Origin: Bacillota bacterium
GTDB taxonomy: Bacteria; Bacillota; Clostridia; Saccharofermentanales; Fastidiosipilaceae
Reading direction: 5' to 3'
Length of the DNA stretch: 36,940 bases
NCBI GenBank assembly: GCA_030057555.1
Contig: JASGUU010000016.1
Coordinates: 1-36,940, forward strand
The translations under genes were made by a program, and so were the position numbers. Each line of letters starts with the position of its first letter. Within the stretch, counting starts at the first letter, position 1. Under the pieces are notes generated by a model. That model was not told the origin of the DNA, did not search any database, and was given only the letters and a program-made list of their open reading frames with translations. Positions 1,364 to 30,297 of the stretch are shown here, piece by piece.

Positions 1364-1648
1364 TTACTTTTCCAAAGAATTATTATGCTGCTTTGCAACA
1401 TATTTTTCATAAATCTCTTGAGCCTTTTTTACTCCCTCTTCTGTAAGACAGACTGACTTGCTTCTACGGCTTCCCTGTCTGATATAGTCTTCCTCGTCAA
1501 GCTCATTAAGCACATCAAAATCATATCCCTTCCAGGCAAATACTCCTGAATCATTTTGACATTTTCTATTAACCGTAAAATGATTCAGATACATGAGCAG
1601 GAGCGTCAACTCTTTAACCACTTCTCTTGTTTTTTCTTCATGAAACAT
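1364..1648 (-). CDS. DUF6429 family small protein
   Basis: This 94-aa protein fits the DUF6429 pattern: an N-terminal helix ending in ELTLLLMYLNHF, a central FAWKGYDFDVLNELDEEDYI block, then SKSVCLTEEGVKKAQEI. The compact helical layout looks like a small winged-helix fold, but the function of the family is unknown. The ATG at 1648 is preceded by GAGGTGA at good spacing, which supports this start. It stands alone between two gene-poor stretches, with no partner that suggests a role. Confidence 0.75.
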   Translation of the reverse strand: MFHEEKTREVVKELTLLLMYLNHFTVNRKCQNDSGVFAWKGYDFDVLNELDEEDYIRQGSRRSKSVCLTEEGVKKAQEIYEKYVAKQHNNSLEK

Positions 1649-2230
1649 ACATCACCTCTCACTTTTACGATATTCAACTCAGCTTTTCCTTCACTATAGT
1701 TAAGTAGATAACGAAACTCCATTTATATCTCTGCACCGATATGCTCTCTCCTTTTTCCGTCCCTGTATCTGCTAAGTTGCTTAAGGCAGTTTCTGTTTCG
1801 ATTTTCAGACTTAGCCTTCCAATCCTGCAAAAGTTGGTACTCCGAGCAGATTAGAGGCGCTGGAATCTCACAGCTGTTCCCTCTGATGCAAAGAGCGTTT
1901 TGAAAAAGCCACCTGCTCGTTCGTCTGGAGCCAGCAGCGCAGCGCAAACGGAGCCACCGGCTCATACCATTGGAATCATCAAACCCCGTTCCCGCAAAGT
2001 ACTGATATACATGGCTTTCGGGCTTGACTCAGTAGAGGGCAGCGAAAACAAATGCCTGTCGATGGATATCCGGTCCAACTCGTCGACAAATCCCACGAAC
2101 CTTGTTGTCCATAGGGTGCGGCAATCCAGAAAAACACACACTGAAATCCCAGAAGTCCGGACAGCTTACAACAGGCACGACGACCTCTTACACCGGAACA
2201 CCGGAATTTCACCCGTTTAGTCCACAGTAA
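1649..2230. other. Intergenic stretch with no supported gene
   Basis: This 582-nt stretch separates the DUF6429 gene from the end of the response-regulator gene. It contains overlapping open frames of 77-106 codons on both strands, but none has a ribosome site, family-like residues or a consistent codon pattern. I see no RNA gene, and no clear terminator for the response-regulator operon. It may hold decayed sequence. Confidence 0.3.
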
Positions 2231-2866
2231 CTACTGAAGATTTTTATAGTAATATACCGCGAGCTCCGTTCTGTTTCTGAGATTCAGCTTCTCCAAAAGA
2301 GACGATATGTAATTTCGGATTGTCCCTTCGGAAAAGCTCATCTGTTGTGCGATTTCCTGATTGGACAAGCCCTGGGCGACCCAGTAGATGAGCTGGTTTT
2401 CCTTTTCTGTCAGACCTGTCAGATCCCTGATGCGTGAATCCTTTCTCAGGGCATGGGGCAGTCTGTCAACGATCTGGTCGCCAAAAATCCTCTGTCCTTT
2501 TAGAACCGCTTCCAGAGCAGGATAGATGCCGGCAAAGTCGGTCTTGATGATATAGCCCTTGGCGCCGATTTTCAGGGCCTCTATGATGTATTCATCTTCC
2601 AGGAAAGTAGTAAGGAAGATGATCTTGGCCTGCTCATCCCTTTCCATGATGATTCTGCCCGCCTCAATACCAGTCATTTCCGGCATCCTGATATCCATGA
2701 GAACCAGATCCGGTCGGTGACTGTCGTAGAGTTCTATGGCCTCCCTGCCGTTGGAGCCGGTGGCGCAGATAACGATATCGTCCTTTCTTCTTCTGGCTTC
2801 GCCTTCAAGAATGGTCTTAATGCCCTGGCTCACCAGGTGGTCATCATCGATGATCAGGACTTTCAT
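2231..2866 (-). CDS. NarL/LuxR-type response regulator
   Basis: This is a 211-aa cytoplasmic transcription factor of a two-component system. The receiver domain (about 1-125) has the acidic triad D7-D9, phospho-acceptor D58 in LMDIRMPE, T85/T86 and K107 in GYIIKTD. A LuxR/NarL helix-turn-helix occupies about 145-205, with TEKENQLIYWVAQGLSNQEIA followed by the recognition helix SEGTIRNYISSLLEKL. The ATG overlaps the stop of the kinase gene by 4 nt (ATGA), so the two are translationally coupled. The divergent ABC exporter starting at 4163 is the obvious target. Phosphorylation is expected to drive dimerisation and binding in the shared promoter region (inference). Confidence 0.93.
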   Translation of the reverse strand: MKVLIIDDDHLVSQGIKTILEGEARRRKDDIVICATGSNGREAIELYDSHRPDLVLMDIRMPEMTGIEAGRIIMERDEQAKIIFLTTFLEDEYIIEALKIGAKGYIIKTDFAGIYPALEAVLKGQRIFGDQIVDRLPHALRKDSRIRDLTGLTEKENQLIYWVAQGLSNQEIAQQMSFSEGTIRNYISSLLEKLNLRNRTELAVYYYKNLQ

Positions 2867-3975
2867 GCATGACCCTCCTCGTACGGAAACTTGATAAAGA
2901 TTCTAAACCCCTTTTCTTTGCTGATGATTAAGCTTCCGCCATGGGCATGAACTCTTTCTTCCATGGTCAATAAGCCGATGCCGGGATTCTGCGGATTTGG
3001 CTCGACATCCGTTCCGTTGTCAACAATCAGGAGAGCCCAGCCGCTTGAACCTTCTCTGAAGGTGATACTGACCCGGCTGGCATTGGAATGCTTGTTGATG
3101 TTGGCCAGAGCTTCTTTGACAATATTGATAATCGTATGTTTCAGGTGGACGCCGGGGTCTGTTCGAAAGTCCAGAGACAGCTTTATCCTGGCCTTGGTAA
3201 AGGCCTGGGCCTGCCTTTCCAGTTCGGCTCTAAGATCCAGAGCTTCATTGTGCTCATGATGGATGGCCGCTCTGACATTGTTCATACCGGAAGAGAGAAG
3301 ATCCCTGACAGTCCTGATCTGCTTTTGCAGGCAGGGATCTTCGATCTGGTATTCCATGGCAGCCAGCTGGATGATGGAAGCCGAAAGATCGTGACCCAGG
3401 TTGTCGTGGATTTCGGAGCTTATCCTTCTTCTTTCCTCGTCCCTGCCTTCCTTGACGGCAGAATTCTGAAGGCTGATTAAGTTCTTCTGCTCGAGGCGAA
3501 TCTTCTCATTGATATGACGGAGCCTGTCGATCTCGCTGTAGGAGGCCTCTTCGAGAACCAGGTATCGGCGCTTGAAGCCGGTCAGCATCATGGCCAGAAG
3601 GCAGATGATCAGCACGGAAAAAAGCAGAAGGATATTGATGTTCAGGATCACGGCATAGAGAAAAAAGCCGGACAGGACCGCGATCCAGGGCTCTTTTTCC
3701 ATGTCCATGGAATAGCTGAGGGCTGGCAGGAAATAGATAAAGAGTGTGTTTCCATATAGAAAAATGGCAAAGACAAACAGGATAATAAGCCTTATCAACA
3801 AGCTGCTTTTGGGATTTTGATTTGTATTAAAGAAAAGGGTGGCCATGACCAGAATGATAACCACTGCCCCGGAAAGAACAATATCCTGAACCGGCAAATT
3901 CTGGCTCAACAGCAGGAAGACAGCTGCCAGAACCAGGGCCAGACCTGTTGCGATATCCGATACAAAGACCTTCAT
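2863..3975 (-). CDS. Sensor histidine kinase, HisKA_3 (NarX/DesK-like) type
   Basis: This 370-aa membrane kinase has four to five hydrophobic segments in the first ~135 residues, with only short loops outside. That layout suggests sensing in or at the membrane rather than by a large extracellular domain. A coiled linker follows, then the HisKA_3 dimerisation motif ERRRISSEIHDNLGH, with the phosphorylated His at about 190. The C-terminal HATPase_c domain has the N-box EALANINKHS, G1 VDNGTD and G2 GIGLLTMEER. The ATG at 3975 is chosen because GAAAGGGG lies just upstream; an in-frame start at 3996 is possible. It precedes and overlaps its cognate regulator gene. Confidence 0.92.
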   Translation of the reverse strand: MKVFVSDIATGLALVLAAVFLLLSQNLPVQDIVLSGAVVIILVMATLFFNTNQNPKSSLLIRLIILFVFAIFLYGNTLFIYFLPALSYSMDMEKEPWIAVLSGFFLYAVILNINILLLFSVLIICLLAMMLTGFKRRYLVLEEASYSEIDRLRHINEKIRLEQKNLISLQNSAVKEGRDEERRRISSEIHDNLGHDLSASIIQLAAMEYQIEDPCLQKQIRTVRDLLSSGMNNVRAAIHHEHNEALDLRAELERQAQAFTKARIKLSLDFRTDPGVHLKHTIINIVKEALANINKHSNASRVSITFREGSSGWALLIVDNGTDVEPNPQNPGIGLLTMEERVHAHGGSLIISKEKGFRIFIKFPYEEGHA

Positions 3976-4162: not shown

Positions 4163-5107
4163 ATGCTGGTAGAAATGAAGGATATCGTAAAGAGATACGG
4201 AAACCTGCTGGCTCTGGACTACTTTGACCTGGAAGCAGAAAAGGGTGAAATCTACGGGCTTTTGGGTCCCAACGGCTCCGGCAAGACAACCGCCATCAAC
4301 TGCATGCTTTCCCTGATCAAATTTGACAACGGCACCGTGAATCTCTTTGGCGAGAAGATGTCTCCGAAAAGAGATGACCTCAAGGAGCGAATCGGCCTGG
4401 TCATGCAGGATATAGGGGTCTATGACGAACTGACAGTAGAGGAAAACATCACGTATTTTTGCGGCCTCTACATCAGCGACAGAAAAAAAAGAAAAGCATA
4501 CGTTGAAGAGGCGATTGACTTTGTCGGCATGGACTCCCACAGGAAATTCAAGCCGCCCCGGCTGTCGGGCGGTCTGAAGAGAAGGCTTAACCTGGCCTGC
4601 GGCATCGCGCACAAGCCCGACCTGATCATCCTGGATGAACCGACCGTAGCGGTTGACCCCCAGTCGAGGAACCATATTCTCGAAAACGTCAGGGCTCTGG
4701 CCCAGGAGGGCAAAACCATCATCTATACGACCCACTACATGGAGGAAGTGGAGGCCATCTGTGACAGGCTGAGCATCATCGACCGCGGGAAAGTCCTGGT
4801 CAGGGGAACGACGGAAGAGATTAAGGCCATGTCCTCAAGCGGAGAGATTATTCATGTAAAGGCCTTCCATCTGGAAGATGATCTGCTGGACAGAATCAGA
4901 GACATGAAAGAAGTGGACGCCGTAAACTACGAGCCTGCCGCCGGCCAGCTGGTCGTTTATTTCTCCAAAGGCGAGTCGGGTCTGATGAGTCTGCTCAGGC
5001 TCTTTGAAGAGAAGAATACGGACTTTTTCGATCTCCATGTAAAAACCCCTTCCTTGAATGACGTTTTCCTTGAAATTACGGGGAAGGAGCTGAGAGACAA
5101 TGACTAG
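4163..5107 (+). CDS. ABC transporter ATP-binding protein
   Basis: This 314-aa cytoplasmic ATPase belongs to an ABC-2 type exporter. Walker A is GPNGSGKTT (35-43), the Q-loop is MQD (81-83), the signature is LSGGLKRRL (134-142), Walker B is LIILDEP (154-160), and the switch histidine is H191 in TTHYMEE. The C-terminal ~90 residues form the extension typical of drug/antibiotic exporter ATPases (CcmA/NatA-like). AAGGAGGAATCA precedes the ATG, which is a strong ribosome site. It overlaps the following permease gene by 8 nt. The substrate cannot be read from the sequence. The neighbouring two-component system suggests an inducible stress or antimicrobial exporter (inference). Confidence 0.94.
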   Translation: MLVEMKDIVKRYGNLLALDYFDLEAEKGEIYGLLGPNGSGKTTAINCMLSLIKFDNGTVNLFGEKMSPKRDDLKERIGLVMQDIGVYDELTVEENITYFCGLYISDRKKRKAYVEEAIDFVGMDSHRKFKPPRLSGGLKRRLNLACGIAHKPDLIILDEPTVAVDPQSRNHILENVRALAQEGKTIIYTTHYMEEVEAICDRLSIIDRGKVLVRGTTEEIKAMSSSGEIIHVKAFHLEDDLLDRIRDMKEVDAVNYEPAAGQLVVYFSKGESGLMSLLRLFEEKNTDFFDLHVKTPSLNDVFLEITGKELRDND

Positions 5108-6329
5108 GCACCTGGCCAGGTTTATGGGCAAGACGAATCTGCTGTCCAGGGATGGCTTTCTTTTGTCTATCATTCTGCCCTTCATTATTGGTCTCATTTT
5201 CCTCTTTTCCTTTGAGAATCTGCGGGAAGCTGCAAACCTGAACCCGGCCGGGATTGTCATCGAGCTGAAGGGAAATCCGGAAGAGAAAAAAGATGTCGAG
5301 GACTTCATTAAGGCGAGGGGCATGGAAGGACGGCTGACAGACCAGGGTCTGGAGCCGGTAGGCGAACCCGGTGACGAAGACTATCTCATCTACTACTTCG
5401 GAGATGATGATGTGGATGACCTTTTGGATGAAGGGACCATAAACGCCAAAGTCTGGATCGATAATACCGGCAAAAAGATGGACATGGAAATCTATGTGCC
5501 ATCGAACAAGGCAAATGACAGATCATCTTTTATGGCGTATCAGATGCTTAATTCATTTGCCAAGACATACCGGAATCTGATCAATAATACAGAAGCCTTA
5601 TATGCCCAGGCCATGGCCGGCAGGGATATGAGCTCTGTAGCAGGGCTGGTGGAACGTGCAGAAACAGGAATTGCTGTTGACGACATCATTGAGACAAAAG
5701 AAAAGGAGGGCATTAACAGCTTTACGCACTATGTCATGGCCACCCTCGGCTTCATCTGCCTCTATTACATCAGGGTGGGGGTAGATATCGTAAGGAAGAA
5801 CGAAGCCTATACCGGAGCTCTGGGCAAGCGGCTGGCCATCAGCCCGGTTTCCAGATCGCTCCGGGTTTTCATTTCCTTTTTGACCACGGGAATTCCCTGC
5901 CTTCTGACAACATACCTGCTTCTGTTTTGCTGCTGGCAGAGGGATTTGGGGCTTTCTCTGGACTATGCCGGGGTCATCCTGGTCGTGAGCCTTGGTGTCC
6001 TGATAGCGATTTTCATGGGGATGGCATTTGCTTCGCTCTTCAAGCTGTCCAAAGACCATGTCAATGTCATCAATGTCCTGATACCCGTATTGGGAGCCCT
6101 GTTTGGCGGGCTGATGGGCCAGGCAAGTCAGATACTGAGTACCTGGATAAACGATAATGCGCCGTTTCTGGCCAGTCTGAACCCGGCAGGCCTGGTATCG
6201 AGGGGACTGTACCAGTTGTCATTCTATCCGTCATACGACTCGTTCTATCAGACGATAAGAATCATGACAGTCTACCTCGCTGTCCTGGCAGTCTGCATTG
6301 GCTTGGGTATGAGGAGGACAAAGGAATAA
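5100..6329 (+). CDS. ABC-2 type transporter permease
   Basis: This 409-aa membrane protein has ABC-2 permease architecture: one N-terminal transmembrane helix (about 20-38, ending IIGLIFLFSF), a ~180-residue extracytoplasmic region, then five or six hydrophobic helices from about residue 215 to the C-terminus. The ATG lies inside the end of the ATPase gene, and the stop shares one base with the next start (TAATG), so the three genes are one operon. It probably pairs with the 400-aa permease that follows to form a heterodimeric channel (inference from tandem arrangement). Confidence 0.9.
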   Translation: MTRHLARFMGKTNLLSRDGFLLSIILPFIIGLIFLFSFENLREAANLNPAGIVIELKGNPEEKKDVEDFIKARGMEGRLTDQGLEPVGEPGDEDYLIYYFGDDDVDDLLDEGTINAKVWIDNTGKKMDMEIYVPSNKANDRSSFMAYQMLNSFAKTYRNLINNTEALYAQAMAGRDMSSVAGLVERAETGIAVDDIIETKEKEGINSFTHYVMATLGFICLYYIRVGVDIVRKNEAYTGALGKRLAISPVSRSLRVFISFLTTGIPCLLTTYLLLFCCWQRDLGLSLDYAGVILVVSLGVLIAIFMGMAFASLFKLSKDHVNVINVLIPVLGALFGGLMGQASQILSTWINDNAPFLASLNPAGLVSRGLYQLSFYPSYDSFYQTIRIMTVYLAVLAVCIGLGMRRTKE

Positions 6330-7531
6330 TGCAGATTTTCAAACTGTTTTACAGGCTGATTTTATCCAGAAAATACACCATAGCAGCCTTTACCGCCATT
6401 TTCTTTCTCATGATTATTCCTGCCAACTATGCCAACAGGCAGGCCAATGATGCGACGTTTAATCCTGAAATGAACAAGGTCATAACCGGTCTGGTTAATC
6501 TCGACGAAGGAGACCCGGTAACCGGGAACCTGATTGACTACCTGGGCCGGACAACGAAGATCGTCGCAGTGGAAAACGATGAAGAGCGAATCGTGGACAT
6601 GCTCTACAATCTGCAGATATCAGACGCCGTGATCATTCCAGAGGGCTATGGCAGGGCTCTGCTTGCTGCAGCCTTTGACAAGGATAAAGAGATTCCCGCC
6701 CTGGAAAGGAAAAAGGGCAACTTCCCTGAAAAATCGATCTATATTGATTCTCTGCTGTCCATGTATGTGTCCAACTTTATGGTCCATGCATGGCCGGTAG
6801 AGAACACGGATTCGCCGGACTGGCTGGAGGAGATGCTTCAGGCCCAGACCGCCAGCCTCCATGATGAGATCAGGATCAAACAGTCTGACAGAGAGGCCAA
6901 TATCGATGTTCTGCTTTACGGATTAACCTACAGCCTGTTAGCCAGCTACATTTACTACATGCTCTTCACGTCTTCGTATGGCACTCCGGCGCTGGCCATG
7001 AGAGAAAAGACAGTCCGGATCCGGGAGAAGATGACCTCCATATCAAGCGCCTCAAGGAATATGCAGTTTTTCCTGGGTTGTACCAGCTTCTTCCTGATCG
7101 TATGGGTACTGACGACGATCGCTGCCGTCTTCCTGTATGGCCCAGGGATCTTTATGGAAGAGATGGGCAGGTTTCTGGTTCTGTCTGCTTTCCTTTCCAC
7201 CTTTGGCATTTCAGGACTGGCTTTCTTTCTGGCGACCATATCGCCGAACTCCTACTTCCTGACCTTTTGCGAAATCGGCCTGGGCCTTTTCATCACCTTT
7301 GCCAGCGGCATTTTCACAGGAACGGAGATGGGCGGCATAATCCCCAAGATCGCTTCCTTTGCGACACCCATCTGGCAGGTAAGAGCCAACCTGGTAATCC
7401 TGTCCTCCGTCAGCCTGACTCCGGCTCAGATCAGCGAAATCTCCGGCTACTTCCTGATCATGCTGGTTCTTGGCCTGGCCTACTATGCGATTTCCTTCGT
7501 CGTCATGCGGTACAGAAGCCTCTCACGATAG
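6329..7531 (+). CDS. ABC-2 type transporter permease (second subunit)
   Basis: This 400-aa membrane protein has the same layout as its neighbour: an N-terminal helix at about 13-30, a ~170-residue soluble loop, then about six membrane helices. The two permeases are similar in plan but clearly diverged, which fits a heteromeric exporter. Translation is coupled to the upstream gene through TAATG. No obvious intrinsic terminator follows the stop, so where the operon transcript ends is not clear. Confidence 0.9.
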   Translation: MQIFKLFYRLILSRKYTIAAFTAIFFLMIIPANYANRQANDATFNPEMNKVITGLVNLDEGDPVTGNLIDYLGRTTKIVAVENDEERIVDMLYNLQISDAVIIPEGYGRALLAAAFDKDKEIPALERKKGNFPEKSIYIDSLLSMYVSNFMVHAWPVENTDSPDWLEEMLQAQTASLHDEIRIKQSDREANIDVLLYGLTYSLLASYIYYMLFTSSYGTPALAMREKTVRIREKMTSISSASRNMQFFLGCTSFFLIVWVLTTIAAVFLYGPGIFMEEMGRFLVLSAFLSTFGISGLAFFLATISPNSYFLTFCEIGLGLFITFASGIFTGTEMGGIIPKIASFATPIWQVRANLVILSSVSLTPAQISEISGYFLIMLVLGLAYYAISFVVMRYRSLSR

Positions 7532-7967
7532 TGCCGTTGCCACCACTGCGGACGCGGGGCCGGTGCAGCTTCCATCTCAATGCCTCTTCTTAAGTGGCAT
7601 TTTATGCAAAGCACGGCTCCGTTTCCCGCTGCTCCCTCCGGGATCTGCTCCCAGCGACGCGTTTGTAAGCCACTGTGCCGCTCCCGCTGTCTATGTCACC
7701 ACGTACTCCGGAACCTTAACAGCCCGGGATTGGAGCAATCGGGAGTAACACCTGCACACGGATCATAACGAGCTTCCCACACAACATAACACTAACTTCC
7801 CACAGTGTTATGTTGAGTGGGAAGCTAGTGTTATGTTCCCGCCTCTTGACACAGTTCCCGACAGCTCCGCAAGAAATCAGGCAGTCCACTACTGACACTG
7901 TGACCCCAGCTTAAGCAGCGTCCAGCGCTTCCTCGCTGCAAAGAAGATCTGACACCGGGCACCGGGT
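7532..7967. other. Intergenic region between ABC operon and AlbA_2 gene, holding a palindromic element
   Basis: The only clear structure in this 436-nt stretch is the nested inverted repeat at 7771-7836 (separate entry). The remaining open frames lack ribosome sites and family-like sequence. A minus frame at 7716-7898 reads straight through the repeat and is not accepted as a gene. Confidence 0.5.
7771..7836. repeat. Nested palindromic element, copy 1
   Basis: The outer arms AGCTTCCCAC (7771-7780) and GTGGGAAGCT (7817-7826) are perfectly complementary. Inner arms AACATAACACT (7783-7793) and AGTGTTATGTT (7804-7814) are also perfect, around a 10-nt loop that carries another ACTTCCCAC. A further AGTGTTATGTT follows at 7827-7836. 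Two related copies lie on the other side of the AlbA_2 gene, at 9412-9482 and 9582-9647. It could be a multi-site operator or a mobile palindromic repeat. Confidence 0.85.
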
Positions 7968-9389
7968 TCAAAGCACCCTGTATCGCTGCCTGGGACTGCG
8001 TGGAGGTTCCGTAGCCTCAATCGTCTTCTCGGCAATCAGTTTGTTAATCGCCCGCTGCACTGCTGTACGGCTGAGACCTGTCTTTTGCATCAGTTCACTT
8101 GTTGAGAAAGATTCGTTCTGCCTGAATGCATGGCGCACTTTTTCATCAGCGGACAGATAACGCTCATCCTGAGCCACCCTGCGGCGGTAAAAAACAATAG
8201 TAAAGCTGTTCAGATCAGCCCTGATCTCAGGCCGCGGCTGCAGATTCTCGGCGAGGGATTTCTCAATTACAGCGATACCAGTACCCCTGCCCTCAGCTAC
8301 AATCCCGCCACCGGGAAACTCGACCGTCTCAAGAAATGTCGCCAGGCGCTGATTGCGCGTGGAACTGATCCCGGCGGTTCCCAGTGTCTGCAGGGTAACA
8401 CCACCATATAGACCACCGGGACTTGTGATTTCAAGTCGATCCACAAACATGTTGACCTGCACCTGACTACCCTGCGCATGGGGGGAATAATCACGATGCA
8501 TGAGCGCGTTCACAACCGCTTCCCGCACTGCAACCAGTGGATAGTCGGGTATGTCCGTGCGATAGACGTCGCCAATAAGTGCCCCGATTCTCATATGATT
8601 CCGCACGAGTTCAACGGTTGACTCAACAAGCTCGGGAATTGCTCCTGACAGTGTCTCCCGATCCAGCAGACGCAGGCCGGAGCCAATTTCCCCCTTTGAT
8701 GTACCTGGAAATACAGAGAATGCTACGGTTAACCGTGGAAAGAACTCCTGTGGATAGTCTCCCAGTGCCAGCAATGCAGCGAGTGTCAGCTGGTCTTCGT
8801 GAAGAATCCGAAGCCGTTTCATGGCCACCTGCTCACCTTCAGCAAATGTTCGTGGTCTTATCGCCCGCTGTTTGTCGAGAAAGACCTTCAGCGCCTGAGC
8901 ATTGAGCTGCTCCAGACCTGTCTGCTCCACTGCTGCTTCATCCCAGCGCGGCTGTTTCTGTTCTTCGCGAATACGGTCTACTTCATACTGTGTCAGGCGG
9001 ACATCGGCATCACCAACCCGCTGATAGCTGCCGCCATAGATCCCACGCTCACGGATATAGGCCGGACGATCCCAGGACGGGAATGCATCAATCTGGGCAA
9101 CGAGCAGTTCGCCCTCCTCAAAAGGGACGATCTGGATGGCGGGCCGGACCGGAGGGCTGATCTGGCGGCCGCGCTCCAGGAGCTGGTCAGCAGCAGCCTG
9201 CGCATCGAAGTCAGGAACCCGCTGAAAGCCTTTTTCTTCGGATAATCCGACGACTATTATGCCCCCACCGGTATTGGCAAAAGCACTGAGCGATTCCAAA
9301 ATCGCTTTACCCACACCTTCCTTGACCTCAACAGTCTGATCATCGCTGCCAAGTACACGCAAATTCTCAACCAGCTGGTCTATATCCAC
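7968..9389 (-). CDS. AlbA_2 / HATPase_c_4 / winged-helix transcriptional regulator-like protein
   Basis: This 473-aa protein has three parts. Residues ~15-135 fit the AlbA_2 (schlafen-like) domain, with SLSAFANTGGGIIVVGLSEE and YIRERGIYGGSYQRVGDADV. Residues ~270-400 fit HATPase_c_4, with PLVAVREAVVNALMHRDYS, DRLEITSPGGL and the glycine-rich GGGIVAEGRGTGIAV. Residues ~415-473 form a winged helix (FSTSELMQKTGLSRTAVQRAINKL). Proteins of this plan are usually annotated as putative transcriptional regulators; nucleotide-dependent DNA binding is likely but unproven. GAGGGAAGA lies upstream of the ATG. The palindromic element at 9412-9482 sits directly in its promoter region, which suggests autoregulation (inference). 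Confidence 0.88.
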   Translation of the reverse strand: MDIDQLVENLRVLGSDDQTVEVKEGVGKAILESLSAFANTGGGIIVVGLSEEKGFQRVPDFDAQAAADQLLERGRQISPPVRPAIQIVPFEEGELLVAQIDAFPSWDRPAYIRERGIYGGSYQRVGDADVRLTQYEVDRIREEQKQPRWDEAAVEQTGLEQLNAQALKVFLDKQRAIRPRTFAEGEQVAMKRLRILHEDQLTLAALLALGDYPQEFFPRLTVAFSVFPGTSKGEIGSGLRLLDRETLSGAIPELVESTVELVRNHMRIGALIGDVYRTDIPDYPLVAVREAVVNALMHRDYSPHAQGSQVQVNMFVDRLEITSPGGLYGGVTLQTLGTAGISSTRNQRLATFLETVEFPGGGIVAEGRGTGIAVIEKSLAENLQPRPEIRADLNSFTIVFYRRRVAQDERYLSADEKVRHAFRQNESFSTSELMQKTGLSRTAVQRAINKLIAEKTIEATEPPRSPRQRYRVL

Positions 9390-9411
9390 CCGTCTTCCCT
9401 CTCAGCTCAGC

Positions 9412-9482
9412 TAACTTCCCACTCATCATAACACTCGACATCCCACTTGGGTATGTTTAGTGTTATGTTGAGTGTTATGTTT
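9412..9482. repeat. Palindromic element, copy 2 (rearranged)
   Basis: This copy is built from the same two words as copies 1 and 3, in a different order. TAACTTCCCACTC is followed by CATAACACTC, then TCCCACTTGGGTATGTT, then AGTGTTATGTTG and AGTGTTATGTTT in tandem. It begins 23 nt upstream of the AlbA_2 start codon, a typical operator/promoter position. Confidence 0.75.
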
Positions 9483-9581
9483 CCGATGAACAGCCTGCGG
9501 ACAGGCCGGCTCGCAACTGCAAATTGTGAAGTTACTGTCTCCTGTTCAGTCGACATCCCCTGATTCCTCAGGTCATCCGCG

Positions 9582-9647
9582 AGCTCCCCACACAACATAA
9601 CACCAACTTCCCACCGTGTTATGCTGTGTGGGAAGCTTGTGTTATGT
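9582..9647. repeat. Nested palindromic element, copy 3
   Basis: This element has the same orientation and layout as copy 1, with about ten differences over 66 nt. Outer arms AGCTCCCCAC (9582-9591) and GTGGGAAGCT (9628-9637) pair with one mismatch. Inner arms AACATAACAC and GTGTTATGCT pair with one mismatch. A trailing GTGTTATGTT ends the element. It lies about 115 nt upstream of the gene at 9762 and may control it. Confidence 0.8.
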
Positions 9648-9761
9648 TCCCTTACTTCTCCCATCCCCCGGTGCAGGCAATTCCGATCCAATTCCGCCAA
9701 TAGCCTGTCGCCAAAGTCACATTTCGTGACATACTCTCTGGCAGCGAAGGGAGGCAGCGTC

Positions 9762-14727: not shown

Positions 14728-14803
14728 GCCTTCTTAGCTCAGTAGGTAGAGCGCATCCATGGTAAGGATGAGGTCAAGGGTTCGATTCCCTTAGAAGGCT
14801 CCA
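14728..14803 (+). tRNA. tRNA-Thr (anticodon GGT), CCA encoded
   Basis: All cloverleaf parts are present. The acceptor stem is GCCTTCT (14728-14734) with AGAAGGC (14793-14799). The D-stem is GCTC/GAGC and the anticodon stem CATCC/GGATG. The seven-base loop ATGGTAA gives anticodon GGT at 14761-14763, reading ACC/ACU threonine codons. The T-stem is AAGGG/CCCTT with loop TTCGATT. Discriminator T (14800) is followed by genomic CCA (14801-14803). The 3' end is the probable integration site of the neighbouring prophage (inference). Confidence 0.96.
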
Positions 14804-17011: not shown

Positions 17012-17539
17012 CTATCTCGCGAAATCTTCTGACCAATCCTCGTTTGTTCCTGGTTCAGAATCGTTCCAATCGATACGGGAGATATAAAGGCTCCCTCCGT
17101 AGGTAACACGATCCCCGGTACTGTAGTAGCCCATCGTACCCTGGGGCTTAACCCATTCCGGAGGTTGCTCATCCGGCTTCACGACACGGGCGTAATGGTT
17201 ATAGGCTGTGTTGGGTGGCTTGTCGGGAGAGGCATCATGCGGTAACTTTACGCGGTAGATCGACCCCTCATAGGTAAGGAAGTTTCCCGGTTTGTATCCC
17301 TTTGCGTCAGGCTTCCAAGCGTCGATATAGGCTTCTACGTCTGGCCCCCTCGCTTCGATCATCGCCGCGATGAGTTCATCCAGTCGCTCCTCTTCAGGAG
17401 TCTTACGCGTCGCGGCCCACGCCAGAATCGCAGTCATATGCTGCCCTAACTCGGATTCTGGTTCAGGTGTTTCGCGGGCGATCTCAAGCCCTCCTTCGCC
17501 GATCAAAATGAGATGGCCTTCTTCGATTACAATCCGCAT
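17012..17539 (-). CDS. Phage tail-associated protein with tandem CBM5/12-like carbohydrate-binding repeats
   Basis: This 175-aa protein has an N-terminal ~70 residues that are charged and helical. The C-terminal ~105 residues contain two copies of a chitin-binding type 3 (CBM5/12) pattern: KGYKPGNFLTYEGSIYRVK and MGYYSTGDRVTYGGSLYIS, each with aromatic residues spaced as in sugar-binding faces, ending in NEDWSEDF. It starts within the end of the tail-fibre gene (13-nt overlap). Likely roles are receptor recognition or decoration of the tail tip. The sugar bound cannot be predicted. Confidence 0.75.
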   Translation of the reverse strand: MRIVIEEGHLILIGEGGLEIARETPEPESELGQHMTAILAWAATRKTPEEERLDELIAAMIEARGPDVEAYIDAWKPDAKGYKPGNFLTYEGSIYRVKLPHDASPDKPPNTAYNHYARVVKPDEQPPEWVKPQGTMGYYSTGDRVTYGGSLYISRIDWNDSEPGTNEDWSEDFAR

Positions 17540-19992
17540 TTTTCTATGACGCCCTCCAGTCTTGCTATTCTCTGTTCGAGGTTTTGCACTCTTCGTTCCA
17601 GCTTATCTGCTCGATCTCGCTGAACCTTGTAGCCGTACAGAGCAAGCGTAGCTACTGCCAACGGCTTTAATCCGTACTCCGTCCGGACTTCGCCTGTTTT
17701 CTCCTTCTCGCCATCAGCGTTCTCGCGCTCGACTTCGATCTCTTCGCGCGTACCAATGAGCTCATAGCCGTCAACTTCTGCGAGGTCATCAGCAATGAGG
17801 CCAAGCTGTGATGAAAGCGCGTCTGGAGTGTCGCGGTACCTAAAGGCCACCACAGAGTTAGCGGCACGGTCAAGCAGCGCCAGCAGCACCGCCGCGTCCG
17901 GTGCGTGGATGTTGGTTTTGTGCGCGCGCCCGGAGGTCTGGATGACCCCGTTGACCGCGTAGACAGCCTTCCAGCGATAGCTGCCGCCGCCAAGGTAGGT
18001 GCGGTTATCGTAGTAAGGGCGGAGCAGGCCGTCCGCCCATGTCAGGATGCGGATGGCAGAGACAAGGCTCTCGTTGCCCCAGATGATGTCAAACGCGCCG
18101 CCGATTCCGCGCTCGCTGAAGACCATGACTTGATCGCCTTCGCCCGCGCCAGTGCCCATGTTGTACAGGCGCGAGATTCTTAGGCGCTGGATAAATCCGT
18201 TCAAAAACGCCCAGCCTATAGCGCCGACGCCGCCGTAGCCCGCGCCGGACTGTATCGGCAGAATTCCAAGATCCGTCGTCTTCATCCATCCGCCGCCGCT
18301 GCCTGCGCCGTTTGCGATCTGCCAGTGCCCGTCAGACGTCGTCCACCCTCGCGTCAGTGCATTAAGGTGCGCCCCATCCACGCTGTCCGCATTAATCCCG
18401 CCGCCATGACCGTACATGGCATCGGTCAGGATGCGCTGCCACGCCTGCCATGTGGCGCTCTTGCCGTGACGATACATCAGACGCCCATCGAGCGTGGATG
18501 CCGCTCCTGAAATCAGCTGCCACGTTTGATAGTCCGCGTTCCAGCCTCGAAACGTCAACCCAGACGCCCACGCAAAACCGTAGGTGTTGGCAAACTCCGT
18601 CGAGATTGCCTTATCGGTATACTCGCTCGGTGCGCGGTTTGTGTTCCGGACATCCTCTATGCCCCATGCCAGATGAGAGGTCTGTGTCAGATCGACATCC
18701 AGAGCTCCGCGCTCATGTCTTTTCCCGACCCCGATTCCGACGTCAGCATGTATGTCAAGCGGGACACGCTCTGTCGGGATGCTGAAGGTCGCTACGGTAG
18801 TACTAAATCGATCACTGATCGTTAGACGTATATCCCAGCTTGCGTCAACCGTTATGGCTCCGCCTCCGACCACATTGTTCCCGCCATAGGTCGTCTGCGC
18901 GTAGCTCTGCTCGAATCCGAGCGTCCAGGAGGATGCCGTAGATCGCTTGTACTCGACTTTAATGGTTAGCTGGTTCTTTTCGGCGCCGTTGACCACCAGG
19001 GACGAGATTGAGCCCGAGCGATTCACCCGGACGTAGGTACCGTTTTCTGCAGCCGCCCCGCCAGAGGTGCAGCGAAACGCCTCCGCGGACGTAATGCGAG
19101 GTGCACGGTGCGCAAGGAGTGTGACCTGAAGCGTCTTCGAGTCGGTACGGCCACGACTGTCCGTGACTTTGCCGGTCGCCGTAAGAGTCCCGGAGCGGTT
19201 TACGGTGCCGGTTGTACCTGACGCAGACTTATACGTTATGCCGTTAAAGGTGATCTCATATCCGCTGATACTAGCACCGTACCCGGCGGCTGCCGATACG
19301 ATATTAAACCGGATGCGGCTCAGCGCCTGCACAAATGCTCCGACCGTCGACGCGATGTTTGCTACCGTCTCAGTAGCCGTGAGAGATGCAATGCTGGGCA
19401 TGACGGTATTAGAGACAGTCACACCGGCATCGACGGTGCGCGTGCCGATAACCTCCGAACCGCGCTTTGTGACGACAGTCGCCCTCAATGTTCCAGAGAC
19501 GGCCGCCGGTAGCTTTGCGAGGATTGCCCGGCTCTCTGCCTGAGAGAGCTGTACGCTCGAGACGTCGCCTAGCGCGGTTCTCGTCGCAATGTTCGCGCCC
19601 CCGATGGAAAAGGTTACATCGTGGGTATTCCCCGATTGATTGGCGGTCAGGGTCAAAGGAACGTTCGTCGCGCTGTCGGCCACTTCGAACGCGGCCAATG
19701 ATGGCTGCGTGGGAGAATAGAGCGGAAGGTTCTGCTCGGTATTGATCCAGGCGTACTCATAGTAGCCGGAGTTCCCCGGCAGGTTGAACCGGATTGTAAC
19801 AGCGGGCCAGGACGCCTCGTCAACGACAAAGCCACCCGAGCGATAAGAGTACGCTGTTTGCGCGGTGACCTGCCCGGACGCTCCTGTCTTGGCTAGAGCC
19901 AGGGCTTGAGTCGAATAGGTGGGGATCGTTTGTTGGATAATGATGGTCGAGTTGTTTACTACGCCATTTAGAGTTGTTGGATCGCCGGCCAT
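17527..19992 (-). CDS. Phage tail fibre/minor structural protein (DUF859-like) with C-terminal S74-type chaperone
   Basis: This 821-aa protein has a repetitive beta-rich N-terminal ~430 residues that fit DUF859 proteins of Gram-positive siphophages, including the RVPLDIHADVGIGVGKRHERGALDV block. The middle is glycine-rich and fibre-like. The last ~135 residues resemble the S74 intramolecular chaperone: S687-G-R-A-H-K692-TNI provides the Ser/Lys pair, followed by FRYRD, LGLIADDLAEV and a C-terminal coiled coil (DKLERRVQNLEQRIARLEGV). In S74 proteins this part trimerises and then cleaves itself off. Cleavage here is inferred from the conserved pair only. Confidence 0.82.
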   Translation of the reverse strand: MAGDPTTLNGVVNNSTIIIQQTIPTYSTQALALAKTGASGQVTAQTAYSYRSGGFVVDEASWPAVTIRFNLPGNSGYYEYAWINTEQNLPLYSPTQPSLAAFEVADSATNVPLTLTANQSGNTHDVTFSIGGANIATRTALGDVSSVQLSQAESRAILAKLPAAVSGTLRATVVTKRGSEVIGTRTVDAGVTVSNTVMPSIASLTATETVANIASTVGAFVQALSRIRFNIVSAAAGYGASISGYEITFNGITYKSASGTTGTVNRSGTLTATGKVTDSRGRTDSKTLQVTLLAHRAPRITSAEAFRCTSGGAAAENGTYVRVNRSGSISSLVVNGAEKNQLTIKVEYKRSTASSWTLGFEQSYAQTTYGGNNVVGGGAITVDASWDIRLTISDRFSTTVATFSIPTERVPLDIHADVGIGVGKRHERGALDVDLTQTSHLAWGIEDVRNTNRAPSEYTDKAISTEFANTYGFAWASGLTFRGWNADYQTWQLISGAASTLDGRLMYRHGKSATWQAWQRILTDAMYGHGGGINADSVDGAHLNALTRGWTTSDGHWQIANGAGSGGGWMKTTDLGILPIQSGAGYGGVGAIGWAFLNGFIQRLRISRLYNMGTGAGEGDQVMVFSERGIGGAFDIIWGNESLVSAIRILTWADGLLRPYYDNRTYLGGGSYRWKAVYAVNGVIQTSGRAHKTNIHAPDAAVLLALLDRAANSVVAFRYRDTPDALSSQLGLIADDLAEVDGYELIGTREEIEVERENADGEKEKTGEVRTEYGLKPLAVATLALYGYKVQRDRADKLERRVQNLEQRIARLEGVIEKCGL

Positions 19993-19996
19993 CTAT

Positions 19997-21970
19997 CTAT
20001 CCTCCTATCCACCGAAAAACAGTGTGTCGACCGTCTGTGCCGTACTTTTCCATCTTGTGATTGCCGACCTGCAACGAGTTCACTATTGTCGCGGAGTTGA
20101 TGTACAGCGTTTGTCCGGTGATATAGGCAACAACGGCGCCCCCATCGACGAAGTTAATCCGATCATTTTGCACCTGGATTGATAGCGGTGAGTCAAAGGC
20201 TCCAACTGTTAGAAAGCCGTCATCGAACGTCATGTACTTCGTTACGTCAGAAAGTGTGACACTATGGTTATCCGTAGAGGCCTGTACTTGCTGAACGAGG
20301 ACAGCCCATTGATCCACTGTAAGTTGCGTAGATGCCTGGGCAGATACCAGATCCGCCAGATCCGCCGCACTGGCTGTACCTGCAATAGCGTTATCAATTT
20401 GGAGTAGCTCCGCCTCATATGATTCGCGGTCAACTTTCGTCACCAGCGATCCTTCAACCATTTGCAGGCTCGCCGCAGTGTTAGCGATCTGATCCGGGAG
20501 TGTAAGCGTTTCACTGACTCTAATTTTCTCGGCAGCTATCCCTGTCGTGTTAATGTGATCGGTGTCGATGCTGCCGGCAAGGATTTGTTCAGCGCCCACC
20601 AACCCTGCGCCGAGCCCGCTGCCGTCGAGGACAGTCGTAATCTTCCAGGTGTCATCCGGGTTCTTGCTGTCCGAGATGATCAGGCGTCCTGCGCCGAAGT
20701 AGATCATCTTGGTAGGGCTCTCGTCGATCGGTGCGTTGAAGCTGTACAGCCCTGCGGGCAGCTCGTAGGCGTTCCCAGCCTCGAGATCGTAGTTGTAGCC
20801 ATCCTCGCCCCAGTAGTCCTTCTCGATGCCCGCAATGAGTGCACGAGCCTGATCGAGGGCAGTAAGACGGGTGTCTTCCGCAGTCGATACGATCTCTTCC
20901 CGGATCGCCCGAAGCCGCCTGGCGGCGTAGCTTTCAATTCGGTCTCCAAGCTCGATCTCGACCTCTGTCGGGCGGAGGAGGTTGACAACACGCTTATAGA
21001 TGCGCGTCTTATAGCGGACCCCGACATCGTCCCGGATAATAGCCACCGTGTCACCGAGTCCGGTGTCGCCCTCATCCCGCACTACAGCGCGGTAGGTGAC
21101 AAGAGGCCGGGAGATCGTCTCGAGCTGGGCATAGGTCGCTGCCAGGAGCTCCTCCGGATCTTCCAGGTCAATGAACTCGGCGACGCCCATGCGCGGCTTG
21201 CCGTTGGGATAACCAAAAACAGCAGTCCGAGCAGGGATCTCGACATAGTTCTGCCCTGCCGGCTTATCGACGGGATCCCCGTTCGCGACAGACCAGACAA
21301 CATCTGTGAAGAGGATCCGGCGCCCGAAGGCCTCTCCGACCTCCTCCCCGCGGCCTCGCCCGATGAGAGCAGTTACCAGGTCAACGCGGTTATCTTCATT
21401 GATAACGTCCAGGAGGCCGGTGCCATGCGCAAAGCGCTTCCCGCGATCCGCGCCGAACTGGTCCGCCCAGTCTACAGTCCTGCCCGTGATCTGGGTGCCG
21501 GAGATCGATACCCGGAAACGAGCCTCGAGTCCCTGGCTGAAAAGCCACTTGAAGCAGTCCAGACGCGTCTGATAGTAAAAGGTGGTTGTGATCAGCCTAG
21601 TGCTGTCGACGACGCCCGTGGTCCAGCGCGAACCGTCCAGGAGCGTGTCGCTGATATTCCGGACGGTCGCATTCTCCGGTCGGCGATCGACGATGATCCC
21701 GTCCGCTTTCAGGTCATCGTACGCGCTCTCAATCGCCTCAAAAGCGTAGAGGCCGTTGCTGATGAGTTTGCGATGGATCTTGTAGAGCCGGAACGTGTCC
21801 GGATTCACCGGATCACGGTGAGCGACATAGCAGGAGGCTGGGTCAATCGTGTCAACGGTCACCCGCAGCGTTCCTGCCCCGTTGATGGTTTCCGTCATGA
21901 TCGCCTCACGCACAGACGCCGCAGGTGTAAGCCCGAGGAAGGTCTCGGAAGCGTCGAAGAAGTAAAGCAT
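19997..21970 (-). CDS. Phage tail-tip protein (Tal-like, minor structural protein family)
   Basis: This is a 657-aa protein. The N-terminal ~370 residues fit the gp27-like hub of siphophage tail-associated proteins ('phage minor structural protein, N-terminal region'): LTPAASVREAIMTETINGAGTL, KIHRKLISNGLYAFEAIESAYD, and GDTVAIIRDDVGVRYKTRIYKR. A helical linker (YAARRLRAIREEIVSTAED) leads to a region with TDHINTTGIAAEKI, common in antireceptor proteins. Order after Dit and before the fibre supports the role. It shares one base with the Dit stop (21970). No peptidase motif was recognised. Confidence 0.82.
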   Translation of the reverse strand: MLYFFDASETFLGLTPAASVREAIMTETINGAGTLRVTVDTIDPASCYVAHRDPVNPDTFRLYKIHRKLISNGLYAFEAIESAYDDLKADGIIVDRRPENATVRNISDTLLDGSRWTTGVVDSTRLITTTFYYQTRLDCFKWLFSQGLEARFRVSISGTQITGRTVDWADQFGADRGKRFAHGTGLLDVINEDNRVDLVTALIGRGRGEEVGEAFGRRILFTDVVWSVANGDPVDKPAGQNYVEIPARTAVFGYPNGKPRMGVAEFIDLEDPEELLAATYAQLETISRPLVTYRAVVRDEGDTGLGDTVAIIRDDVGVRYKTRIYKRVVNLLRPTEVEIELGDRIESYAARRLRAIREEIVSTAEDTRLTALDQARALIAGIEKDYWGEDGYNYDLEAGNAYELPAGLYSFNAPIDESPTKMIYFGAGRLIISDSKNPDDTWKITTVLDGSGLGAGLVGAEQILAGSIDTDHINTTGIAAEKIRVSETLTLPDQIANTAASLQMVEGSLVTKVDRESYEAELLQIDNAIAGTASAADLADLVSAQASTQLTVDQWAVLVQQVQASTDNHSVTLSDVTKYMTFDDGFLTVGAFDSPLSIQVQNDRINFVDGGAVVAYITGQTLYINSATIVNSLQVGNHKMEKYGTDGRHTVFRWIGG

Positions 21971-22725
21971 CAGAGCCTCCTCTCCCTGTAGGTGATCGTT
22001 AAAGCGGCGGCAGGAGTGCTCGTGATCGTATCTCCGGCTTTCACGGAGAAGCCTTCATAGTCGGACGCGAGTTCAAGCCGGTTTGCTGCCGGCTGCCCGT
22101 TCTCGGTCAGGATCGGGCTCCCCAGCCACGAGACTTTGTAGACCGCTCCTGCCGCGATCGGTCCAGTGATGTAGAGGTTGTGCTGCCCGCAGGTGATCCG
22201 CAAAGAGGCGCCAGCCGCCTCTGGGACGGCCACGATGCTCTCCAGGGCAACTGGATAGCCCGGTTCCCCGGCGAGCGTTCCTGTGCTCACCTGCGCAGCA
22301 CTACGGGCGTACGGGTCTGGGCAGACAAAGGTAAGCGTTATAACCTGCTGCCTTCGATCGTTTTTCGGCGCTTTGTAGCCGTGATAGAAAGCCTGAAAGA
22401 GCCACCCGGGGGCATCCGTAAACGCCAGCTCCTGAAGCCCTTTATGTAGCTTGGCATTGAGCTCAAGGGCCGCTTCGTTGTAGTTCAGGACCAGAGCCTC
22501 GACGTAGATGTAGCGCTCCGGAAGCCGGGCATGATCTACCCAAACGCCATCCCCGCCGACACGCGCTGTCATCGAGAGCTGGGGAGACATAAGCTCCCGT
22601 CCAGTGACGTTCAGCGTGCGGAAACCGGGGATGACTTCGTCAAGCACTGACCCGCCCCAGATAGTCCGGAGCGGGTCAGGGGTCTCGATGTTCGGGCCGC
22701 TTGTGTCCGTGAATTCATACGCCAT
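21970..22725 (-). CDS. Distal tail protein (Dit-like, siphovirus tail family)
   Basis: This 251-aa protein has a fold pattern like siphophage Dit proteins: an N-terminal region with beta strands (IPGFRTLNVTGRELMSP, RYIYVEALVLNYNEAALELNAKLHKGL) and the typical FVCPDPYA element around residue 130, followed by a beta-sandwich C-terminal half. Dit forms the ring joining the tail tube to the tail-tip hub. It sits between the tape measure and the Tal-like gene, overlapping both (11 nt and 1 nt), which is the standard position. Confidence 0.85.
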   Translation of the reverse strand: MAYEFTDTSGPNIETPDPLRTIWGGSVLDEVIPGFRTLNVTGRELMSPQLSMTARVGGDGVWVDHARLPERYIYVEALVLNYNEAALELNAKLHKGLQELAFTDAPGWLFQAFYHGYKAPKNDRRQQVITLTFVCPDPYARSAAQVSTGTLAGEPGYPVALESIVAVPEAAGASLRITCGQHNLYITGPIAAGAVYKVSWLGSPILTENGQPAANRLELASDYEGFSVKAGDTITSTPAAALTITYRERRL

Positions 22726-25627: not shown

Positions 25628-25940
25628 TCCTTGCCTCCTTCCGTCTGTGGTATTCGCGTACGCGCTTCGCGCGCTGCAGGAGGTCGTCATAGACCTCCGA
25701 GAGCATCCCTTCGCCCAGGACCTCCCTTTCGATCGCGCTAACGTCGATCAGGTCGTGCGGGGACTGGATGAGATATCGGTTGTTAGGACCGACCTGTCGG
25801 ACAGCGCGGCCGTAGAGAGCGGCAAAGGCGAGATCCTCCCGCCTGTCCGCTGTCCTGAGTCGGGCGGCCCGGAGCTGCAGCTCAAAATCGGCCCAGGGCA
25901 TTCGCCGCAGAACGGTGAGATCGGTCGAGACAACCCGCAA
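25611..25940 (-). CDS. Tail assembly chaperone, T-like part (probably made only by -1 frameshift)
   Basis: A 109-codon frame (first usable start a TTG at 25940) follows the G-like gene in the -1 frame and has no good ribosome site of its own. The same frame is open further upstream, back through QNDKRWVSSEEAYENLL to the heptamer at 26015-26021. So the natural product is probably a G-T fusion of about 250 aa (26362 to 25611 with one base reread). The content (MPWADFELQLRAARLRTADRREDLAFAALYG) is helical and arginine-rich, as in T domains, which contact the tape measure. The tape measure follows directly. Confidence 0.75.
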   Translation of the reverse strand: MRVVSTDLTVLRRMPWADFELQLRAARLRTADRREDLAFAALYGRAVRQVGPNNRYLIQSPHDLIDVSAIEREVLGEGMLSEVYDDLLQRAKRVREYHRRKEARNGNTD

Positions 25941-25948
25941 GCCTTGAA

Positions 25949-26362
25949 TCAGGAGGTTTTCGTAGGCCTCTTCTGACGAGACCCAGCGCTTGTCGTTTTG
26001 GGCGGCTCCAGCCTCCCCAAAGCTTCCGCGACGGGTGTGATTTCGTTTTTCATAAGCTTGGATGTCTCGTATAGCGACAAAAAACGCTCTCTCAAAGCCT
26101 CCAGATCCGTGTCTTCCGCTTCGAGATACGTATCAATCTCATCTTGCGTCGGCGGGATCTCCTCTGTGCAGGTCGCTGCCTGAATCACATCGGACAGAAC
26201 CAGAACATCGCCTGAATGCATGCTGAGATAGGTGTAAGACAGCCCCTGACCATACACCAGGCCGTCAGGGGTCTTCCGTTCAAACTTCTTGTCGAGCTCA
26301 CGGATAAAGGCAAGCCCGAAGCGCAGCGGGATTTCTCTCCCGCCGATACGTACACTATTCAT
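25949..26362 (-). CDS. Tail assembly chaperone, G-like
   Basis: This is a 137-aa protein (MNSVRIGGREIPLRFGLAF...) placed between the major tail protein and the tape measure, where lambda gpG-like chaperones sit. GGAGGAG precedes the ATG at 26362; a GTG at 26380 is less likely. Most ribosomes would end at the TGA at 25949-25951. A fraction is predicted to slip at TTTGGGG (codons TTG GGG, 26020-26015) and continue into the T-like frame. It binds and chaperones the tape measure during tail assembly (family knowledge). Confidence 0.82.
   Translation of the reverse strand: MNSVRIGGREIPLRFGLAFIRELDKKFERKTPDGLVYGQGLSYTYLSMHSGDVLVLSDVIQAATCTEEIPPTQDEIDTYLEAEDTDLEALRERFLSLYETSKLMKNEITPVAEALGRLEPPKTTSAGSRQKRPTKTS
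26015..26021 (-). promoter_or_regulatory. Predicted -1 ribosomal frameshift heptamer TTTGGGG
   Basis: The zero frame reads ..T TTG GGG at this site, fitting X XXY YYZ. After a -1 slip the A-site tRNA still pairs perfectly (GGG to GGG) and the P-site tRNA re-pairs TTG to TTT. The -1 frame downstream is open without interruption to the stop at 25611. A short GGCT/AGCC hairpin follows closely, but no strong pseudoknot was found. Confidence 0.7.
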
Positions 26363-26385
26363 TGCTCCTCCCTCCTGCACGTAGA

Positions 26386-26418
26386 AGCGGCGGCTCCCTT
26401 CGCCGGGAAGCCGCCGCT
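26386..26418. other. Strong 10-bp hairpin between major tail protein and chaperone genes
   Basis: AGCGGCGGCT (26386-26395) pairs perfectly with AGCCGCCGCT (26409-26418) around a 13-nt loop. There is no T-tract on either side, so it is more likely a partial terminator/attenuator or an RNA-end stabiliser. It would favour the abundant tail protein over the downstream chaperones and tape measure (inference). Confidence 0.6.
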
Positions 26419-26439
26419 ACGTAAATTCGGCCCTATTGT

Positions 26440-26943: not shown

Positions 26944-26953
26944 ATAGACCTCC

Positions 26954-28390: not shown

Positions 28391-28392
28391 GA

Positions 28393-28605: not shown

Positions 28606-28622
28606 TCAGCACCTCCCTGCCA

Positions 28623-29528: not shown

Positions 29529-29531
29529 GGT

Positions 29532-30083: not shown

Positions 30084-30096
30084 AACGCTCTCCCTT

Positions 30097-30177
30097 CCCC
30101 GCGATTCCTCTACGGCCCCGCGGATCCGCTTTATATTTCCGCCCCGCCGATTCCCCCCAAAAGGGCCCCGGCGATTC
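30097..30177. repeat. Four short GC-rich direct repeats upstream of the scaffold gene
   Basis: On the plus strand, CCCCGCGATTC (30097-30107), CCCCGCGGATCC (30116-30127), CCCCGCCGATTC (30142-30153) and CCCCGGCGATTC (30166-30177) share the consensus CCCCGSCGATTC, spaced 19-26 nt apart. They fall in the leader of the scaffold/capsid operon, just after the upstream terminator, and may be binding sites or RNA elements. Confidence 0.6.
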
Positions 30178-30294: not shown

Positions 30295-30297
30295 ATG

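Follow-up and report, generated by a model that had tools for sequence, protein, structure and literature searches.

A Schlafen-family gene between arrays of a repeated DNA word: a candidate self-contained effector cassette

Why should a lone gene be bracketed by copies of one palindromic element? The question is raised by contig JASGUU010000016.1 of a Clostridia bacterium (Fastidiosipilaceae), a 36,940-bp stretch called the window here, in which three such elements lie around a gene for an AlbA_2/HATPase protein. A first-pass annotation had described nested palindromes made of two recurring words and had suggested either a dedicated operator set for the gene or the borders of a mobile cassette. 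I found that each element is an array of half-sites of one word, that the array-gene-array layout recurs in relatives, that the words covary with the winged helix of the protein, that related cassettes lie between unrelated flanks in four genera, and that four chromosomal sites hold either a cassette or a solo array. The best explanation, and a fairly probable one, is a self-contained cassette of array, gene and array for a Schlafen-family effector, with the winged helix as the proposed array binder.

Anatomy of the locus

The features of the locus, in window positions, are as follows.

7769-7840, unstranded: array D (element 1), downstream of the gene, in direct orientation relative to U2; words at 7771-80, 7783-92 and 7794-803 (+), and at 7805-14, 7817-26 and 7828-37 (-)
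7968-9389, minus strand: cassette gene, GTG start, 473 aa, with SLFN_AlbA_2, HATPase_c_4 and a C-terminal winged helix
7971-8156, minus strand: winged helix, about aa 412-473, proposed array-binding domain (structure matches, covariation)
8190-8471, minus strand: HATPase_c_4 (GHKL-type) domain, aa 307-400 (Pfam, conservation)
8994-9341, minus strand: SLFN_AlbA_2 domain, aa 17-132 (Pfam, conservation, Foldseek)
9412-9482, unstranded: array U1 (element 2), proposed operator, ending 22 bp before the GTG; words at 9413-22, 9425-34 and 9437-46 (+), and at about 9448-57 (two mismatches), 9460-69 and 9472-81 (-)
9483-9579, unstranded: U2-U1 spacer, 97 bp, absent from the same-genus locus L034 of genome G001
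9580-9651, unstranded: array U2 (element 3), further upstream of the gene than U1; words at about 9582-91, 9594-603 and 9605-14 (+), and at 9616-25, 9628-37 and 9639-48 (-)

Each array consists of six half-sites of about 10 bp with the consensus AACWTMMCAC, three forward and then three reverse, 11-12 bp apart. The two words of the first-pass annotation, CTTCCCAC and AACATAAC, are variants of the single word AAC-T--CAC; its nested palindromes are real dyads, but they are better described as six half-sites of one word. The words recur where that annotation had placed them and slightly beyond, and its two near-identical elements around a unit of about 1.8 kb were confirmed as elements 1 and 3, which are 92% identical over 72 nt in direct orientation, 1811 bp apart. 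The gene is transcribed from the element 3 side toward element 1, which is located between two convergent genes. With one mismatch allowed, AACWTMMCAC has 21 matches in the window against a shuffle mean of 7.55 (0 of 100 shuffles reached 21), and 16 of the 21 fall inside the three elements. For the looser ARCWTMMCAC, the densest cluster in the window holds 6 words, while the maximum in 40 first-order random sequences is 2.

The SLFN_AlbA_2 domain matches PF04326 (2.8e-15, 57.3 bits, cut-off 25.3) with the conserved residues E21/K23 (VEVK), N39 and GG42-43, and has a structure match to the N-domain of SLFN13 (5yd0; Foldseek E 7.7e-5). The HATPase_c_4 domain matches PF13749 (9.1e-23, 80.5 bits, cut-off 26); G325-G326, R345-N346, G369 and G371 are invariant, as are N294 and H298 just before the Pfam match. 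The winged helix (about 410-473) has structure matches at Z of about 9.4-10.6 with a root-mean-square deviation (rmsd) of 1.4-3.3 A, and its match to Pfam HTH_11 (3.3e-5, 24.1 bits) lies under the cut-off of 25. The AlphaFold model of the protein has a mean predicted local distance difference test score of 86. Judged from its sequence, the protein is a member of the Schlafen AlbA_2 / GHKL / winged helix-turn-helix (wHTH) family, with both Pfam domains above their cut-offs. Its PADLOC matches are Argonaute-type models and no Schlafen system, and no transposase or recombinase domain is among the Pfam or NCBIfam matches of this single cassette gene.

Could the arrays simply be structural palindromes that form hairpins in RNA or in single-stranded DNA, in the manner of terminators or of elements like the repetitive extragenic palindrome (REP)? 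The predicted folding is strong (DNA-fold z-scores of -5.2 to -8.4 for the six strands of the three elements), as is expected for any dyad, and several of the solo arrays described below lie at gene ends. However, the word order often disrupts a symmetric hairpin while the words themselves are kept, the arrays are not dispersed in the genomes checked, and the words track a DNA-binding domain, so that hairpins are an extremely unlikely explanation. Two related candidates were rejected. A structured RNA gave no Rfam match at gathering scores. Dispersed REP or REPIN repeats do not fit a search in which a single array was the query (E of 0.001 or lower): in all 14 whole genomes checked, the array was found solely at the gene. 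Nor was there a copy elsewhere in the genome of the window. In that genome (96% complete, 90 contigs), a 2-kb query had no match beyond the locus itself, and the sole match of the exact two-word pattern was element 2.

Recurrence of the layout in relatives

Is the layout a peculiarity of this contig? I compared 81 loci, namely the window and the best 80 of 370 loci from one scan. The 80 relatives have 37-88% identity and belong mostly to Actinomycetota. After a genome of the same genus, the closest relatives of the window protein are from Actinomycetaceae, and the window's own genome groups with G001, a metagenome-assembled genome with the label Bacillota; thus, these sequences make a transfer of the cassette from Actinomycetota into the window lineage likely.

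The upstream and downstream flanks match each other with a similarity of at least 20 in 52 of the 81 loci (43 in the window locus), while none of 399 control window pairs reached even 15; cross-locus pairs of upstream and downstream flanks reached 20 in 24 of 400 cases. The loci are related to one another; when the proteins are clustered at 80% identity, a member at 20 or above is present in 35 of 56 clusters, and in 31 of the 56 every member is at that level. In the 38-row clade that contains the window the count is 31 of 38. An inverted repeat of at least 12 lies within 250 bp upstream in 59 of the 81 loci and downstream in 47, compared with 14 of 299 control windows. Fully recognised arrays are most often spaced 12-12-11-12-12 (17/52). 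The direct orientation scores higher in 48 of the 52 loci and the inverted one in the other four, as strongly palindromic arrays can do. Of 27 more distant homologs in genomes related to that of the window, only 1 has matching flanks at 20 (L018 was too short). The layout therefore seems to be a trait of this subfamily rather than of AlbA_2/HATPase proteins in general.

The locus L034 of G001 is the window's sister, in the same genus and at the same site. Its upstream array is perfect, there is no U2-U1 interval, and the outer flank of U2 aligns with the flank of its single upstream array, while its downstream array looks decayed. This state speaks for the upstream array as the one under constraint, and for recombination among arrays.

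A few loci deviate in other ways. Three consecutive upstream arrays, about 90-220 bp apart, were seen in L063, L070 and L073, with little or no downstream array. The gene of L093 lies (around 1648-3096) between direct repeats of about 56 nt (score 56) that are not array-like. In L072, the cassette has on either side (3358-3678 and 5655-5991) a copy of a repeat, about 330 nt long, with a small open reading frame, and both copies match L095 around 2075-2412. L075, in a record titled Tissierella sp. Marseille-P2918, matches the Varibaculum locus L077 at 85% over 3.7 kb, either by recent transfer or by assembly contamination. The genome of L054 (G111) is recorded as Mycobacteriaceae but was among the genomes searched as the genus of G098, Corynebacterium, so that label may be imprecise.

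Covariation of words and winged helix

The array words vary among lineages. Which part of the protein varies with them? The similarity of upstream-array words was compared with the distance per protein domain, with the rest of the protein controlled for. In this test 68 of the 81 loci were usable (13 were dropped because their upstream palindrome was weak or their winged helix was not aligned), and pairs at a protein distance of 0.28 or less were excluded. The winged helix gave a partial r of -0.387, with 0 of 500 permutations as low. The other domains gave +0.043 for AlbA_2 (378/500), -0.008 for the linker (222/500) and -0.037 for HATPase (122/500). Among 12-residue segments, the wing at 458-469 ranks first (r -0.353). 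I infer from this covariation, the best evidence for binding, that the arrays are recognised by the winged helix of the same protein.

Lineage-specific words that track the winged helix of their own protein recall BstA, a prophage defence protein suppressed by a cognate 63-bp element, aba, at its own start, according to the portion of the source available (PMC8585504). By analogy, the arrays could be self-recognition DNA; bound arrays would keep the effector inactive, and lower occupancy or array-free foreign DNA would release it. The likeness lies in a defence protein with a short, variant-specific cognate DNA element at its own start. However, BstA is of another protein family and prophage-borne, its 63-bp element has terminal direct CCCGCC repeats, and the available portion of that paper describes no flanking pair. 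Moreover, that element serves a replicating prophage, while the close relatives here carry no sign of phage or plasmid carriage. None was found on a phage or plasmid, all matching phage (32) and plasmid (161) records being below 60% identity, and IMG/VR gave 2 weak relatives at 24-29% identity. Thus, I consider self-recognition very unlikely.

Cassette borders and solo arrays

Five loci (L039, L041, L043, L045 and L050) come from four genera (Brevibacterium twice) in four families, and in all 10 pairings their DNA identity is 84-88%. The stretch in common begins at about 3878-3920 and ends at 5516-5565 in these loci, which takes it from one array edge to the other to within about 30 bp, and the flanks share only short weak matches. 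Since unselected flanks also decay at 84-88% identity, this limit alone is no proof of array-exact insertion. Near-identical cassettes were not found elsewhere in the class; among 394 genomes searched at E 1e-20, the only match was in the query's own genome.

Array and gene were cross-tabulated in 242 Corynebacterium genomes; the collections used hold one genome per species. The array was called at E 1e-5 or better (48 genomes), and the close gene at E below 1e-160 (34 genomes) or as the split copy in G186, 35 genomes in total. Both were present in 28 genomes, the array only in 20, the gene only in 7 and neither in 187 (Fisher p 1.6e-17). When the split copy in G697 is counted as well, the numbers for both, gene only, array only and neither are 28/8/20/186 (p 6.5e-17). 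One genome, G120, has two close gene copies. Arrays at loci without the gene, which the first-pass annotation had named as the finding that would speak against it, therefore do occur, in 20 of the 48 array-bearing genomes; yet 9 of these 20 are tied to a filled cassette site or to a gene remnant beside the array (G736, G703, G755, G752, G182, G696 and G772, and doubtfully G131 and G132 with short remnants).

At four chromosomal sites, the same flanks hold either a cassette or one solo array (compared over 200 nt per side, or over 150 nt on the left at the L043 site). At the first, between two genes recognised from their sequence as rmlD and rmlA, a cassette lies in L038, L040 and L042 and one array in G736, G703, G755, G752 and G122 (flanks 77-95%). 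The L054 site holds one array of four words, not six, in G182 and G696 (flanks 94.5-95.5%). One array stands at the L062 site in G772 (right flank 95.5%, left 72.7%) and one at the L043 site in G647 (90% each side). The L050 site appears filled in G622 and G623 by gap length (about 1.6 kb); in G624 no clear array is seen there, and the hairpin-like stretch at the site is unrelated. A second cassette type also occurs at the rmlD-rmlA junction, in G149, G179 and G127, with a split copy in G186. In the tree, L064 and L066 group with L062, away from L038, L040 and L042. Since the two types are not sisters, the tree indicates that this junction is one that was filled more than once, or exchanged.

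In L038 (at about 3903) and in the solo arrays L256, L261, L262 and L264, the array extends into the end of the adjacent gene, the one taken to be rmlD, and its first word CATAACAC seemingly provides the TAA stop codon. An array of the CTTCCCAC type was also seen in L257 (G121), about 430 bp from a more distant homolog with 29% identity to L108.

Do these sites need more than an operator pair? In phage lambda, the operator groups OL and OR lie either side of an autoregulated repressor gene. Here, likewise, groups of sites lie on both sides of a gene, but each is a set of six half-sites in tandem, and no promoter is known for the downstream one. The arrays might thus be autoregulatory operators only, bridged by the protein, with solo arrays as accidental deletion scars and ordinary gene transfer behind the distribution. 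The excess of upstream over downstream inverted repeats, the perfect upstream and decayed-looking downstream array of G001, the words that covary with the winged helix and the additional upstream arrays of L063, L070 and L073 all fit this. Operators alone leave unexplained the four-genus identity that ends near the outer array edges (although unselected flanks would decay too) and the non-sister cassettes at the common rmlD-rmlA site. This explanation is rather unlikely.

At the other extreme, the locus could be an autonomous site-specific mobile element, in which the Schlafen protein or a recruited partner recombines the arrays and cassettes excise, circulate and land. Array-exact presence and absence, related cassettes in different genera, two cassette lineages at one rmlD-rmlA junction and ends in direct orientation are what such an element would leave. 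However, the arrays are at a single place per genome in the 14 genomes checked, the Pfam matches include no recombinase domain, no target duplication was seen, and RecA or slippage could leave identical scars. I regard full autonomy as distinctly unlikely. A related reading, a new class of minimal mobile element of about 1.6 kb and a single gene whose Schlafen-GHKL-winged-helix effector binds lineage-specific six-word end arrays that are operator, off-switch and recombination site at once, is unlikely as well; if it is true, array-array exchange would let defence cassettes swap, vanish and return at fixed chromosomal landing pads.

A proposed mechanism

The self-contained effector cassette proposed at the outset may work as follows. 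The gene product combines a nuclease-like SLFN_AlbA_2 domain, a GHKL-type ATPase domain and the winged helix. The winged helix would bind the 10-bp words, and the dyad of three plus three half-sites could seat up to six side by side. Since the upstream array occupies the expected place of the promoter or ribosome-binding region, binding there may keep a costly effector off by autorepression until it is triggered. The downstream array, a second copy in the same orientation, would give the cassette its second end and may aid repression through bridging. Recombination between the two arrays in direct orientation would delete the gene and one array, which would set the direction of change at the four sites, and the remaining solo array would then erode; the reverse exchange, or horizontal transfer, would place cassettes at new sites. 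The recombination agent would be either host RecA or slippage, or a dedicated enzyme.

Both suggestions of the first-pass annotation survive in part. The operator set fits the upstream arrays at many homologous genes, the covariation of words and winged helix and the 14 of 14 genomes with arrays solely at the gene, but it is one part of a combination. The borders of a mobile cassette fit the four-genus DNA identity that stops near the array edges and the solo arrays at the same sites, but a recombination enzyme was not identified.

Several observations weigh against the proposed cassette. The upstream and downstream flanks do not match at 20 in 29 of the 81 loci; therefore, the downstream array is not essential, and in G001 a perfect upstream array is paired with the decayed-looking one. 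A sigma-70 consensus scan found no promoter at the array. In the covariation test, segments 393-404 and 280-293, outside the winged helix, come close to the wing, and the permutations ignore the kinship of the loci, relatedness being partly controlled and the other domains serving as internal controls. Three of the array-only genomes are only loosely tied to a gene, by a short fragment about 450 bp off in G180 and by a more distant homolog within 3 kb in G700 and G121. Eight more have no filled counterpart (G210, G682, G144, G687, G142, G751, G176 and G177), with G682 matching the L062 site at its right side only (86.5% versus 50.8% left). Neither a target-site duplication nor an array-free empty site in a close relative turned up in these collections of one genome per species. 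Two candidate empty sites (78-79% identity) retain remnants, half an array in G786 and one word in G154; such eroded arrays suggest loss and then decay.

One further candidate was rejected. The extended -10-like sequence TGTTATGTT, as fourth word, is equally common downstream (12/20) and upstream (19/32), so it is no promoter evidence.

Comparison with known systems

What might the effector do? Proteins that join a Schlafen-family RNase, a minimal histidine kinase and a wHTH are presented, in the available part of one paper, among the backup suicidal effectors in bacteriophage exclusion (BREX) loci, and their close linkage to BREX-type core loci is given for at least 1017 taxa (PMC12839542). 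As far as that part goes, they have the three-part architecture in common with the cassette protein, but they adjoin or sit inside multi-gene defence loci, whereas the cassette gene is alone between its arrays. TrlG of Photorhabdus, as described in the available part of its paper, has Alba_2 and HATPase_c_4 domains, is present in 21 of 46 Photorhabdus genomes, and has mutations that relieve growth restriction at 36 C (PMC7554251). It shares the two domains with the cassette protein but lies in a three-gene operon, and that part of the paper does not mention flanking arrays. An effector role is proposed here because the same architecture occurs in the BREX Schlafen RNase effectors and in the growth-restricting TrlG; by this analogy, the cassette gene is probably a virus-defence gene and its product may act as an RNase.

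Structural comparison adds two neighbours. One is a solved relative, the uncharacterised DIP2311 of Corynebacterium diphtheriae (PDB 3lmm), whose alignment covers residues 1-405 at 18% identity (Z 21.8, rmsd 12.0 A, 341 residues). Since the rmsd is high, the modelled structure suggests a domain arrangement different from that of the cassette protein. The pNOB8 centromere-binding protein AspA (PDB 5k5q) matches the winged helix (Z 10.3, 62 residues, 1.6 A), tied with many other winged helices, and so shares only the common fold.

In full-text literature searched by title and start of abstract, with preprints and most subscription journals outside the search, no description of arrays flanking a Schlafen-type gene was found. 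Schlafen-like effectors are reported in many bacteria, and the arrays bear on how lone copies are silenced and spread. Since the words have diversified in step with the winged helix, they offer dozens of natural protein/DNA pairs for recognition tests. Because the same sites occur in nature both with a cassette and with a solo array, the gain or loss of a probable defence gene can be tested directly, and the array-gene-array layout is a simple annotation signature for further members and scars.

Other features of the window

ABC transporter genes (one ATPase and two ABC-2 membrane proteins) lie at 4163-7531, convergent toward the cassette gene. A prophage-like block occupies 17527-34969 on the minus strand, where 8 of 9 proteins have PHROGs matches; its genes include those for the terminase large subunit, portal, head morphogenesis, major head, tape measure, distal tail and tail proteins. 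A tRNA-Thr is located at 14728-14803.

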